The notes beneath the pieces were generated by a model, which saw only the letters and a program-made list of their open reading frames with translations, searched no databases and was not told where the DNA came from. 64,000 nucleotides of DNA from Flavobacteriaceae bacterium UJ101 (GTDB lineage: Bacteria; Bacteroidota; Bacteroidia; Flavobacteriales; UJ101): assembly GCA_001880285.1 (NCBI GenBank), contig CP016269.1, positions 2,304,501-2,368,500 of the forward strand. Direction: 5' to 3'. This document shows positions 17,291 to 22,010 of the stretch, piece by piece. Numbering within the stretch: position 1 is the first letter of the stretch; each line of letters begins with the position of its first letter. The position numbers were made by a program, and so were the translations under genes.

Positions 17291-17323
17291 AAAAAAGCTT
17301 CAAAATAATTTTGAAGCTTTTTT
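17291..17323 (-). terminator. Terminator of the first three-gene secreted-protein operon
   Basis: AAAAAAGCTTCAAAAT pairs with its complement almost without a loop and is followed by a T-run on the minus strand. It lies 18 bp after the last gene of the triplet and separates it from the M48 gene. Confidence 0.85.
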
Positions 17324-17340: not shown

Positions 17341-18060
17341 TTAATAAGCAATTAAATTAAAGTCATTACCTGTTAACAAGTTTGTAGAAACACTACAACC
17401 ACTATCTCTTCTTGCTTCTAAATAGTATTTTTGAACAAATCCTGCTGGATTTTCATCGTAATAAGTGAATGACAAAGGGTGTTCTAATGTTGAATTTGCA
17501 AGAGTAACAGCATTATCCATTTCATATTCTCTTAAAACAGTAGAAACCGTGTTATTACTTGAATCAGTACGCTCTCTTCTTAAACGAATAAATATTTTAG
17601 CACAAGAGCTAGATCCGTTTCGAATTTCACGTGTAGTGGTAAAGGATATTAAAGTTGTACGATCCAATACATCACTTTTTGCTACAGTAATAGGAGTTAC
17701 AACATTGGTATAACTGGTAACACTGTTTACATTAAAACTACCTGCAGTAGATTCTTGAGCAGAAGGTGTACTAATTTGATCTTCTGTTAAGATACATTGA
17801 CTAACAGAATTATCTCCTTTTGTAAATTTAATACACTTCTCACTATTATCATAAAACATCATTCCAGGTTTATTATTTGCTGTATCATTAGCAAATGCAG
17901 TTAAATCGGTTACGATAGGAAGTATAAATCCTTTGTTATCCGTACCGTTACCCATTTTTAAAACAGCACTTTCGTTTATAACGTTGGTCCCTAGGGATAC
18001 TTGTGCAGTTAAACTAGAGCTTAAAGCTAAAGTTAGGATAGAATATATAATAGATTTCAT
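17341..18060 (-). CDS. Secreted protein of unknown function, triplet type C, copy 1
   Basis: Reading from the ATG at 18060 gives 239 residues (a TTG nine bases further upstream is possible, but the ATG gives the better signal peptide, ending L-T-A-Q). The mature N-terminal 75 residues have a module shared with its neighbours: V-S-L-G-T, a repeat-like S-A-V-L-K-M, then G-F-I-L-P and P-G-M-M-F-Y, with two cysteines (E-K-C-I-K-F and S-Q-C-I-L). The remaining 140 residues look like one beta-sandwich with two more cysteines (S-S-C-A-K-I, S-G-C-S-V-S) and end in a final strand F-N-L-I-A-Y. It is paralogous to the gene at 19872-20591. No enzyme motif or T9SS sorting tail is visible. Confidence 0.75.
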   Translation of the reverse strand: MKSIIYSILTLALSSSLTAQVSLGTNVINESAVLKMGNGTDNKGFILPIVTDLTAFANDTANNKPGMMFYDNSEKCIKFTKGDNSVSQCILTEDQISTPSAQESTAGSFNVNSVTSYTNVVTPITVAKSDVLDRTTLISFTTTREIRNGSSSCAKIFIRLRRERTDSSNNTVSTVLREYEMDNAVTLANSTLEHPLSFTYYDENPAGFVQKYYLEARRDSGCSVSTNLLTGNDFNLIAY

Positions 18061-18071
18061 AAAATACAAAT

Positions 18072-18785
18072 TTAAATTTCTTTAATAGTAATAGTTACAG
18101 TTGGTCCAAAAAATTGGTTAGCTGAAGTGGTAGAACATGATGTGTCAGGATTTCTATAACGTAAATCCAGAGTATGATTCCCTTGATCTAACTCTTTGAT
18201 GTAATACATTTCTACAGGGAAAATACGACCACTTGAAGATACTGGATAAGTATGCGTAATACTTTGTGACAGTACACCATCAACATATAGCATTAATTCT
18301 TGACTTCCGCATTGGAAAACACTAGGTCCACTATTATGAACTATTTGATGTGAACTTCTTATCTTAAATACAACTGCCGCTTTTACCACATCTACTTCAA
18401 ATGTATTACTACCAGTAGCAACAGTAAAACTTCGTGCTGTACTAGAGTTGTTTATATCATTTGGAGGATCATTATAGGTTACATTAACTAATCGTTCTGT
18501 TTTAACATCTTCTAAACAACTTGATAATTCTGTACCATCATGAAATGCAAAACATTGTTGATCTTCTCTATAAATTAAAACTCCAGCTGTTGCATTGGAT
18601 CCTAATGAAGTACCATTTGCAACGTGTGGTAAACGAACGGCTTGTTTCCCATTTCCCCTTACTTCTAAAACGGCGTTCCCTGCTATATCTGAAGAAGATG
18701 ATTCTGTAATAGCATCTTCTGTGTCAATTAATACTTGTCCAAAAGCTAGGGGAGATATAAGTAATAAAAATATATATTTCTTCAT
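18072..18785 (-). CDS. Secreted protein of unknown function, triplet type B, copy 1
   Basis: The 237-residue protein has a Sec signal ending F-G-Q. It shows the same two-part plan as its neighbours: an N-terminal module (V-L-I-D-T, then A-V-L-E-V-R-G-N-G, R-L-P-H, G-V-L-I-Y-R) with a cysteine pair (Q-Q-C-F-A-F, S-S-C-L-E-D), and a C-terminal beta-rich domain. That domain has V-V-F-K-I-R-S-S-H, a second cysteine pair (F-Q-C-G-S, T-S-C-S-T) and a closing strand T-V-T-I-T-I-K-E-I. R-I-F-P-V-E-M-Y-Y and G-N-H-T-L-D-L-R-Y-R resemble strands of C1q/TNF-like jelly rolls by eye. It sits 23 bp after type A and 11 bp before the type C ATG, so one transcript is likely. The gene at 20605-21312 is a close paralogue. 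Confidence 0.78.
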   Translation of the reverse strand: MKKYIFLLLISPLAFGQVLIDTEDAITESSSSDIAGNAVLEVRGNGKQAVRLPHVANGTSLGSNATAGVLIYREDQQCFAFHDGTELSSCLEDVKTERLVNVTYNDPPNDINNSSTARSFTVATGSNTFEVDVVKAAVVFKIRSSHQIVHNSGPSVFQCGSQELMLYVDGVLSQSITHTYPVSSSGRIFPVEMYYIKELDQGNHTLDLRYRNPDTSCSTTSANQFFGPTVTITIKEI

Positions 18786-18808
18786 AATTTCTAATCTTTT
18801 TCTAATCC

Positions 18809-19504
18809 TTAATAATAATTGATGATTAATTCATTGTTTATTAATTTTCCAGCAGTTTTACAACGAGTACTTGTTGCATCATGATAGGCTTTTACTTTAA
18901 GAGCTTCCCCAGCTGTAGAAATAAAATTCACGTTTGCTGAAACAGGTAAAGTTTGTTGTAAAGTAGAACCTTGGAAGTTAAATAGTGTACTTTCTGAAGC
19001 TAATACTGCGTTAGTGTTAGCATCGATGATTTTCACAATGATTTGTCCTCGAAAACATGTTTGAGTAAATTCAACATCCGTTTTAAACTCTGCTGAAATA
19101 TAGGAAGCATTTACAGTTGGATAAATCGTTTTTTCCATACCTGGAACTGCAACTTCAGTATTAGTAGCAGTACTTCTTTGCCAGTCAGATCCAGTTGTAA
19201 TATCGGTTTGAATCTGTAAAGCATCACCCGTTAAGAAAATACTCGTCCATTTTGAACGTAAATAGTTTCGTTTTTGATAACCTGTTAATCCTTGCTCATT
19301 TTCTGAATAAGCAATCATCCCTTCTGTAGGGTTTGCTACATCACTTTGTAAAGCAATATAAGGCAAAACAAAGGCTCCTTTACTCCCGTTAGATTGTAAA
19401 TGTAGGATAGATCCTGCATTTGGTGTTGTAGTACCAATTCCCACTTGTGATAGTACTATACTGCAAATCGCAAAAGCTGCGAAACAGAATAAATTTTTTC
19501 TCAT
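18809..19504 (-). CDS. Secreted GIGTTTPN-type protein, triplet type A, copy 1
   Basis: The 231-residue protein has a Sec signal (1-19) followed directly by Q-V-G-I-G-T-T-T-P-N, a start seen on many Bacteroidota surface and tail-fibre-like proteins. Next come L-H-L-Q-S-N-G-S-K-G-A-F-V-L-P and T-E-G-M-I-A-Y, matching the short N-terminal module common to such proteins. The C-terminal part (about 90-231) is beta-rich and has only one cysteine pair (T-C-F-R-G, R-C-K-T-A), ending in E-L-I-I-N-Y-Y. It is first in the minus-strand triplet, with its own -7 element. Its paralogue at 21315-22010 is identical over long stretches, for example residues around T-G-D-A-L-Q-I-Q-T-D-I-T-T-G. Function unknown. 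Confidence 0.8.
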   Translation of the reverse strand: MRKNLFCFAAFAICSIVLSQVGIGTTTPNAGSILHLQSNGSKGAFVLPYIALQSDVANPTEGMIAYSENEQGLTGYQKRNYLRSKWTSIFLTGDALQIQTDITTGSDWQRSTATNTEVAVPGMEKTIYPTVNASYISAEFKTDVEFTQTCFRGQIIVKIIDANTNAVLASESTLFNFQGSTLQQTLPVSANVNFISTAGEALKVKAYHDATSTRCKTAGKLINNELIINYY

Positions 19505-19871
19505 GTTTTATTTAATTTTTCCTAATCCGTTACAAAGATAAAACATCGGAGTTAAAAAAATCTGTCTTTCAATGAAAATCCTAAAAAAATGTTAAAATTA
19601 ATCGAAGAACCCTTAAAAAAATATGTTTTTAGATGAATGAACAAATTCTTTAGATGAATGAATTTTAGGAAAAGATGCTCTGAACATGGCTTGAATACTC
19701 AAAAATTAATTTGTATCAATAAATAAACATGGTGGAAAATGTTAAAGTCAATAGATTTTGTTTATAACATTTGATAAAATTATAATATGTATAATTTATG
19801 ATGCTTACTCCTTTAAGTATAAAAGGATAATTGTATAATATCTTGAAATAGTTATCGTTATAAAATGGTTG
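19505..19871. other. Intergenic region between the two triplet copies, with a 21-bp-spaced direct repeat
   Basis: This 367-bp gap has no credible gene. It contains a perfect 14-bp direct repeat TTTAGATGAATGAA at 19628-19641 and 19649-19662, a 21-bp period or two helical turns. The repeat lies upstream of the copy 1 promoter and is not present upstream of copy 2. No strong terminator is visible after the last gene of copy 2; only a weak CCTTT/AAAGG hairpin near 19809-19826 was seen. Read-through from copy 2 into copy 1 therefore cannot be excluded. Confidence 0.6.
19533..19540 (-). promoter_or_regulatory. Candidate -7 promoter element (TATCTTTG) of triplet copy 1
   Basis: An exact TAnnTTTG octamer on the minus strand, 28 bp before the type A ATG. 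The second copy has TATCTTTA at the corresponding place (22034-22041), so the element seems partly conserved between copies. Confidence 0.45.
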
Positions 19872-20591
19872 TTAATAGGCAATTGCTTTAAAAGAGTTGT
19901 TTTTTAATTGATTGGTTGAGGGTGAACAAGAGGCATCTTTTTTTACTTGAACAGAATAACGTTGGTTAGAACCTCTTGGTGTTTCGTCATAATAAGTAAA
20001 GGATAAAGGATGTTGTAATAATTCATTGGATAATGTAACGGCATTATCTAATGTATATTCTCTTAAAACCTTGTTTCTACCGGAGTCATTTAAATCTTCT
20101 CTAAGTAATTGAACTTCTATTTTGGCACATACAGAAGAAGCATGTGAGATATCTCGTCGGGTAGTGAAAGAAATAAGTGTTGTTCGGTCTAAAAAATTAT
20201 CTTGTCCTATAGTAATAGAAGAAAGAATATTGGTATAACTAGTTGAAGTTACATTAAAACTAGCTAAGGTTTGTTCTTGTGCGCTAGGAGTACTTACCTC
20301 ATCTTCAGTAAGAATACATGGACTAATCGATTTATCACCTCTTAAAAATTTTAAACATTTTTCAGAAACATTATTATCGAAAAAGATCATTCCTTGTTTG
20401 TTATTTGCTGTGTCGGCACCAAAAGTAGCGAGATCTGTTACAATCGGTACAACTAGTGCTTTGTTATCAGTTCCATGTCCTAATTTTAAAACGGTACTTT
20501 CATTAATTACAGTTGTTCCCATAGAGACTTGTGCAAGCAGGGGAGTACTTGAGATAGATAATATGATGAGATATTTGAATAATAATTTCAT
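19872..20591 (-). CDS. Secreted protein of unknown function, triplet type C, copy 2
   Basis: The 239-residue protein begins with a Sec signal ending L-L-A-Q. It repeats the type C plan of 17341-18060: V-S-M-G-T, S-T-V-L-K-L-G-H-G-T-D-N-K, a first cysteine pair (E-K-C-L-K-F, S-P-C-I-L-T-E-D), then S-T-P-S-A-Q-E and a beta-rich domain with S-V-C-A-K-I and A-S-C-S-P-S, ending F-K-A-I-A-Y. Long blocks such as L-D-R-T-T-L-I-S-F-T-T and H-P-L-S-F-T-Y-Y-D-E are shared with copy 1. It is the last gene of copy 2, 13 bp after type B. No function is known. Confidence 0.78.
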   Translation of the reverse strand: MKLLFKYLIILSISSTPLLAQVSMGTTVINESTVLKLGHGTDNKALVVPIVTDLATFGADTANNKQGMIFFDNNVSEKCLKFLRGDKSISPCILTEDEVSTPSAQEQTLASFNVTSTSYTNILSSITIGQDNFLDRTTLISFTTRRDISHASSVCAKIEVQLLREDLNDSGRNKVLREYTLDNAVTLSNELLQHPLSFTYYDETPRGSNQRYSVQVKKDASCSPSTNQLKNNSFKAIAY

Positions 20592-20604
20592 AATGTTCTG
20601 GGTT

Positions 20605-21312
20605 TTAAATTTCTTTAATGGTTATGGCTAAGGTTGGGGCTAAATATCGATTTGCAGAAGTAGGAGCACAAGAAGGATTAGGATTTCTATAGCGTAAATC
20701 TACTGTATGATTCCCTTGAGACAATTCTTTAATGAAATAAAGTTCAACAGGGAAAATACGACCACTTGAATCGACAGGGTATTGATGAACAACCGTTTCA
20801 GATAAAACATTATCAACATAAAGTGCTAGTTCTTGACTTCCACACATAAAATTCCCTGGCCCATTGTTATGTACGATATTGTGTGAACTTCTTACTTTAA
20901 ATACAACAGCTGCATTCACAACATCTATTTCAAAAGTGTTACTACCTGTTAATAAAGGAAAACTTTGATAGGTGCTACTATTGTTTACAGCAGTAGGTGG
21001 GTTATCATAAGTGTTGGTAATCAAGCGTTCTGTTTTGATATCTTCGATACATGAGGATAAACTGGTTCCATCATGAAAAGCAAAACAACCTTGATCTTCT
21101 CTATAAAGAAGCATTGCAGTTTCATAATTTCCAGCACTAATAGAACTTTCTTGGGCAATATGAGGGAGTCTGAGTGTTTGTGTTCCGTCCCCTCTAATTT
21201 CAATAACAGCATTACCTGCTATATCTGAAATGTCTTCAGCATTTTCAGTATTAATTAATACTTGCCCAAAGGCAAAAGGAGATATCGATATTAAAAGTAA
21301 AAGTTTTTTCAT
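20605..21312 (-). CDS. Secreted protein of unknown function, triplet type B, copy 2
   Basis: The 235-residue protein has a Sec signal ending F-G-Q and the type B architecture: N-terminal module with Q-G-C-F-A-F-H-D-G-T and S-S-C-I-E-D, then a beta-rich domain with V-V-F-K-V-R-S-S-H, M-C-G-S-Q-E-L and P-S-C-A-P-T, closing on A-I-T-I-K-E-I. The positions of all four cysteines match copy 1 at 18072-18785. The start is 2 bp after the type A stop codon, so translation is probably coupled. The variable parts lie mostly in the middle loop (about residues 95-115), where copy 1 and copy 2 differ in length and sequence. Confidence 0.78.
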   Translation of the reverse strand: MKKLLLLISISPFAFGQVLINTENAEDISDIAGNAVIEIRGDGTQTLRLPHIAQESSISAGNYETAMLLYREDQGCFAFHDGTSLSSCIEDIKTERLITNTYDNPPTAVNNSSTYQSFPLLTGSNTFEIDVVNAAVVFKVRSSHNIVHNNGPGNFMCGSQELALYVDNVLSETVVHQYPVDSSGRIFPVELYFIKELSQGNHTVDLRYRNPNPSCAPTSANRYLAPTLAITIKEI

Positions 21313-21314
21313 TT

Positions 21315-22010
21315 TTAATAATAATTAATAATTAATTCATTATTGGTTAGTCTTCCAGCTAATTTACAGGCTGTTGAAGTGGCGTTATGGTATGCTTTTA
21401 TTCTAATTGTTTCACCTGCAGTAGAAATATAGTTTACATTGACATTGACAGGTAAAGTTTGTTGTAAACTTGAGCCTTGAAAATTAAATGTATTACTCTC
21501 TGATGCTAATTCATTATTACTACCATCAAATACTTTGATAACAAGTCGTCCTCTAAAACAATTTTGTGTGAATTCAACATCGGTTTTAAATTCTGCAGAA
21601 ATGTATGATGAGTTAACGGTAGGGAAAATGGTTTTTTCCATTCCTGGTATGGCAATATCTGTATTAGTGGTAAGGTTTCTTTGCCAGTCTGCACCGGTAG
21701 TAATATCGGTTTGAATTTGTAAAGCATCACCTGTTAAAAAAATACTACTCCATTTAGGACGTAAATAATTACGACTTTGATAACCTGTTAATCCTTGTTC
21801 ATTTTCAGAGTAAGCGATCATCCCTTCTGTAGGATTTGTTACACTGCTTTGTAGTTGTATGTAAGGGAGTACAATAGCTCCTTTACCTCCAGTACTTTTC
21901 AAGTCTAATATAGAACTTGAATTAGGAGTGGTAGTTCCAATACCAACTTGTGATAGAGCACAATGACTTATTAGAACTAAAATGAGGGTATAAAATATCC
22001 TTTCTCTCAT
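21315..22010 (-). CDS. Secreted GIGTTTPN-type protein, triplet type A, copy 2
   Basis: The 231-residue protein has a signal peptide (about 1-20), then Q-V-G-I-G-T-T-T-P-N, a K-G-A-I-V-L-P segment and T-E-G-M-I-A-Y-S-E-N-E-Q-G-L. The C-terminal beta-rich half carries one cysteine pair (N-C-F-R-G, A-C-K-L-A) and ends E-L-I-I-N-Y-Y. It has exactly the same length as copy 1 (18809-19504) and most residues agree. The signal peptide is the least similar part, as expected for an old duplication under selection on the mature protein. It is the first gene of the upstream triplet; a near-match -7 element TATCTTTA lies 23 bp before the start. Confidence 0.8.
   Translation of the reverse strand: MRERIFYTLILVLISHCALSQVGIGTTTPNSSSILDLKSTGGKGAIVLPYIQLQSSVTNPTEGMIAYSENEQGLTGYQSRNYLRPKWSSIFLTGDALQIQTDITTGADWQRNLTTNTDIAIPGMEKTIFPTVNSSYISAEFKTDVEFTQNCFRGRLVIKVFDGSNNELASESNTFNFQGSSLQQTLPVNVNVNYISTAGETIRIKAYHNATSTACKLAGRLTNNELIINYY

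Follow-up and report, generated by a model that had tools for sequence, protein, structure and literature searches.

To our knowledge, the known bacterial TNF-like lectins are homomeric. The N-terminal domain of BC2L-C and PLTL of Photorhabdus laumondii are trimeric glycan-binding jelly rolls of similar domain size, and both are single-gene homo-oligomers, with PLTL forming a hexamer of two trimers (PMC3164656, PMC12914763). The two lectins were among the fold matches of the low-confidence models of B2 or C2, two of the proteins encoded at the locus described here; however, this locus comprises sets of three genes (triads) whose products carry an additional N-terminal module, and no sequence similarity to either lectin was found. 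In vertebrate complement C1q, the A, B, and C chains are paralogous, are encoded by three neighbouring genes, and form one heterotrimer with jelly-roll heads. The likeness of the triads to C1q is one of plan only and serves as a working analogy; the triads have no collagen stalk and no demonstrated sequence homology to C1q.

Two further systems were compared. SprB, SprC, and SprD of Flavobacterium johnsoniae derive from a gliding-adhesin operon and are likewise a multi-gene set for surface proteins, probably from the same order as the triad host. The triads were set apart from them by the T9SS-tail search and the neighbour genes alone, with no tail being detected and no neighbour being shared. 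Phage tail fibres show some likeness through an S74 chaperone domain on one module protein and through a two-module relative, in which the second module half weakly matched the tail-fibre repeat family DUF2793 (E = 9e-4, below the Pfam cut-off). The triad loci differ from phage genes in being chromosomal and encoding signal peptides, and C2 matched none of the collected phage records; because it matched nothing in the plasmid collection either, a phage or plasmid origin was rejected.

The window, i.e., the whole stretch of 64,000 nucleotides that was analysed, contains two triads on the minus strand, transcribed in the order C2-B2-A2, spacer, C1-B1-A1 (Table 1). ORF positions and in-register alignment confirmed the sequence-only reading of six co-oriented genes in two A-B-C copies. 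Intergenic gaps within each triad were 2 to 23 bp. The A1 ORF reported by the tool (17341-18069) opens at TTG 18069, although the ATG is the more likely start, giving A1 the same length as A2. The sequence TATCTTTG at 19533-19540, located 28 bases ahead of C1, fits the Bacteroidetes -7 box, a motif whose frequency in the window does not exceed that expected by chance. No structural RNA was found in the triad locus.

Table 1. Features of the duplicated triad locus (positions within the window)
Feature	Position	Strand	Description
C2, first gene of triad 2	21315..22010	minus	231 aa; signal peptide, module, beta domain with two cysteines
B2, second gene of triad 2	20605..21312	minus	235 aa; full-length homologue of conserved triad family by profile match
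A2, third gene of triad 2	19872..20591	minus	239 aa; module and beta domain with two cysteines
Spacer between triads	19505..19871	minus	367 bp
C1, first gene of triad 1	18809..19504	minus	231 aa
B1, second gene of triad 1	18072..18785	minus	237 aa
A1, third gene of triad 1	17341..18060	minus	239 aa from ATG at 18060
Terminator-like hairpin with T-run	17291..17323	undefined (symmetric)	just after A1

Our favoured reading, to which we give slightly less than an even chance, is that the products of a C-B-A triad are diverged subunits of the same obligate hetero-oligomer, which is probably a 1:1:1 heterotrimeric exported binding head. Each chain would consist of a Sec/signal peptidase I signal peptide, a module of approximately 60 residues, and a C-terminal beta domain, which, judged from the predicted fold, is probably a C1q/TNF-like jelly roll with one putative disulphide. 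The three chains would co-assemble, most likely in equal proportion, and the complex may act in the periplasm or at the cell surface as a binding head, perhaps for glycans. The duplication of the whole set, an old and single event, is evident from the two copies, and both complexes would have been kept.

Global alignment of the two copies gave protein identities of 60.2, 67.1, and 73.5% for A, B, and C, respectively, with a DNA identity of 67–74%, and in-register DNA repeats spaced 2.50–2.53 kb apart ran across the two triads. The dS values were similar for all three pairs (1.54, 1.33, and 1.42 for A, B, and C, respectively) and near saturation, so the age of the duplication is rough. The corresponding dN/dS values were 0.22, 0.19, and 0.125. 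Because dS was alike in all three pairs, dN/dS was below 0.25, and the repeats were in register, the data fit one old duplication of the whole C-B-A block, with all six genes under purifying selection. The alignments showed that all cysteines of the mature parts were retained between copies (4, 4, and 2 in A, B, and C, respectively), as had been noted from the sequence. The accompanying remark that the signal peptides vary most was true of A and C (signal-peptide dN/dS of 0.86 and 0.58, respectively) but not of B (0.21).

All six proteins have (A/S/G)-Q-V after a hydrophobic stretch, as read by eye, in agreement with the Bacteroidetes Q-rule, which places Gln at mature position 1 after a Sec/SPI signal peptide (PMC5837995). 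Searches with Pfam, NCBIfam, and PHROGs profiles assigned none of the six to a known family and gave no match to an enzyme model, so that a known-family assignment by profile was rejected; no NCBIfam or Pfam model of a type A or B T9SS C-terminal sorting domain matched any of them. The earlier description of the proteins as functionally unassigned and lacking a T9SS tail thus stands for the libraries searched.

A, B, and C carry a common N-terminal module of approximately 60 residues, which is also present in approximately 55 other exported proteins of the UJ101 genome. The module lies directly after the signal peptide and has the pattern QVGIGT...KG..LP...P..G...Y...W; in C2, it occupies about residues 20-77. 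A C2 query against its own genome matched 55 places, nearly all aligning over only about the first 100 residues, and iterated profiles on the ORFs of those places retrieved approximately 60 module proteins, in most of which the module follows the signal peptide directly. When A and B were left out of the profile, it still matched A1 (7.8e-14), A2 (1.1e-9), B1 (6e-6), and B2 (1.4e-3), as well as C2 (4.7e-22) and C1 (6.8e-20), which were themselves in the profile. This leave-out result ruled out A, B, and C as three unrelated types, and the initial view of them as three unrelated unknowns was therefore not borne out.

The module was present in 41 of 98 genomes of the order and was most frequent in the UJ101 genome (64 matches). 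It had no meaningful score in Pfam, NCBIfam, or the PDB, and when PDB sequences were searched with profiles of the module and of the triads, nothing meaningful was returned. The C-terminal parts joined to it are diverse, including C-type lectin, SASA esterase, Peptidase_S74, and sub-threshold LamG-like domains and many unknowns; the first three were observed at L039:1926-2828, L034:2616-3689, and L043:1037-2128. Module genes often stand alone or in pairs, and one array in another genome (G048) has four module genes in a row with two more nearby, which means that the number three characterises particular families and not the module.

By hhalign or shuffling, no two of A, B, and C were significantly similar in their C-terminal halves, in contrast to the chains of other triads, which are homologous in their C-terminal parts. 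In a six-way alignment, one cysteine of the C-terminal half was in register in A, B, and C, and each protein has two C-terminal cysteines in comparable places in the alignments, a correspondence that is suggestive only. Among 296 genomes of the order, nothing convincingly related to the C-terminal half of either A or C was found, and C and B profiles used in two pattern scans of 84,980 species, a test of limited sensitivity, found no relatives. B matched a 32-sequence triad profile over 199 columns spanning both halves (E = 3.4e-12), whereas A and C matched the triad family in the module only; B2 also weakly matched profile A7 (E = 1e-3). By profile comparison, B is an end-to-end homologue of the triad-forming module gene family (T021 type), with a branch too long for trustworthy placement among the triad positions in the tree.

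Structure prediction gave mean pLDDT values of 47.7 and 51.1 for B2 and C2, respectively. These low-confidence models matched the folds of C1QL, 4-1BBL, GITRL, BC2L-C, the PLTL lectin, Pgp3, and lambda gpJ, together with viral tail and collagen-like proteins, and the same lists contained jelly rolls without relation to these, among them viral capsids and carbohydrate-binding modules. With mean pLDDT values of 48 and 51 and such jelly rolls listed, the matches are suggestive only; the models support a predicted beta sandwich and hint at a trimer. Among triad relatives, weak Pfam matches to TNF (E = 0.048) and BclA_C (E = 0.067) were in line with this.

Triads are not peculiar to this window but are a recurrent form in this and other genomes. 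The window locus itself has exactly three adjacent co-oriented module genes, C-B-A, twice. In the UJ101 genome, a six-gene array at 1412060-1416769 (L057:7061-11770) again comprises two sets of three genes arranged in parallel, and its C-terminal domains are unrelated; in the tree, support was good for position 3 and weak for positions 1 and 2. Further three-gene sets are located at 1991638-1994108, 245466-248732, and 176706-179243. The C-terminal parts are homologous inside those sets but not between most of them, and genes of the 1991638 set are, position by position, reciprocal best matches of genes in another genus. The C-terminal types forming triads include B-related, C1q-like, LamG-like, and Fib_succ_major-like ones. 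Another three-gene module set was observed in a different genome (G137, L065:4466-7695), where the one scanned protein had a sub-threshold Fib_succ_major match (E = 1.4e-5).

A profile of the C-terminal parts of the 1991638 set was searched against 396 genomes of the order. This B-related family occurred at 42 loci in 41 genomes, each a run of precisely three neighbouring matches in one orientation, with no run of two and none longer than three in the 396 genomes; up to eight candidates were scored per genome, so that runs of four or five would still show. The only other matches were 10 singletons, mostly weak: one decayed locus (G322), one partial ORF (G286), B2 of the window, and the rest with E > 1e-5. 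The decayed triad (L115:6169-7701) lies at a syntenic locus, and its remaining triad-type gene has no N-terminal module. Loci inside one clade are not independent events, and the 42 loci are thus not 42 independent origins. A second, independent triad family had exactly three members in 6 of 6 strongly matching genomes.

In a tree of 13 triads at the ORF level, positions 1, 2, and 3 formed perfect clades inside each of two subfamilies. The subfamilies coalesce separately, either because triads arose twice or because their members evolved in concert. The triad of the UJ101 genome was sister to that of another genome (G171) in all three positions, which suggests that the triad was shared by transfer as a unit. 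The earlier proposal that A, B, and C work as a set thus gains strong support from their relatives, in which module-gene triads are inherited as three.

These data also bear on the alternatives. The three genes of a triad might instead specify independent homotrimers or monomers that bind different ligands and are expressed together as a panel, which the duplication widened. This reading would suit the great difference of A, B, and C in their C-terminal halves and the homomeric use of the module that must occur in view of the common single and paired module genes. Such a panel should lose and gain members freely, yet every one of the 42 loci has exactly three, the clades by position show that one trio of types has stayed together, and the second family is equally strict; we therefore consider this explanation rather unlikely. 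Ordinary paralogue expansion, with three reflecting chance and inheritance and having no stoichiometric meaning, would be in keeping with the abundance of module genes in the genome (approximately 55) and with the shared ancestry of triads within a clade. It is very improbable in our judgement, as several C-terminal types each form triads, two subfamilies coalesce separately, and two triads in the UJ101 genome were doubled whole.

The genes surrounding the triads differ by genus, with no conserved neighbour gene beside the triads across genera; conservation therefore resides in the triad as such. The lack of a conserved neighbour would also be compatible with a larger envelope assembly that needs three chains without forming a heterotrimer, such as a stacked fibre or a complex with an outer membrane carrier whose gene lies elsewhere. 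The module, which also terminates large ORFs that lie beside small two-module proteins, may accordingly be an assembly or anchoring device. However, no carrier gene was identified and the triads look self-contained, which makes this assembly improbable.

The heterotrimeric head is preferred for the following reasons. That triads number three so strictly, keep their positions, and are doubled as whole sets is best accounted for if the chains need one another in fixed proportion, and this proportion together with the probable trimeric fold makes a heterotrimer the most economical reading. A binding role would follow from the resemblance in fold and from the occurrence of lectin and esterase domains on other module proteins. 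Counting against the heterotrimeric head are the low confidence of the models, the dissimilarity of A, B, and C in their C-terminal halves, the lack of C-terminal relatives for A and C, the frequency of single and paired module genes, and the lone member kept in G322. More tentatively, and with appreciable doubt, we suggest a widespread class of bacterial obligate heterotrimers, in which three paralogous exported chains from a three-gene set bear C1q/TNF-like heads on an abundant module, heads are swapped between sets, and whole sets are duplicated. If the rule of three genes recurs across genera, it would indicate bacterial heterotrimers organised like C1q. The rule also provides a sharp test for dozens of exported proteins left unnamed by the libraries searched. 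In addition, it brings to light an N-terminal module that is present in as many as approximately 60 proteins per genome and absent from those libraries. Among the openly licensed papers covered by our literature search, where absence is weak evidence, neither such triads, nor bacterial C1q-like heterotrimers, nor the module string was described.

Apart from the triads, small proteins of 163-199 aa, consisting almost wholly of two modules, follow larger ORFs at L052:2572-12658, L053:6858-8807, and L056:5527-9079. In those larger ORFs, the module has no first strand and lies at or towards the C-terminal end, and the pairing of a large ORF with a small two-module protein recurs in other genomes. 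Together, they might constitute a distinct surface-protein system, perhaps one that uses strand complementation. The first of these loci (G000:C1:2811071-2821157) is a duplicated cassette of an 823/825-aa gene and a 168-aa two-module gene, and a third copy of the 168-aa gene is located at L051:5028-5534.
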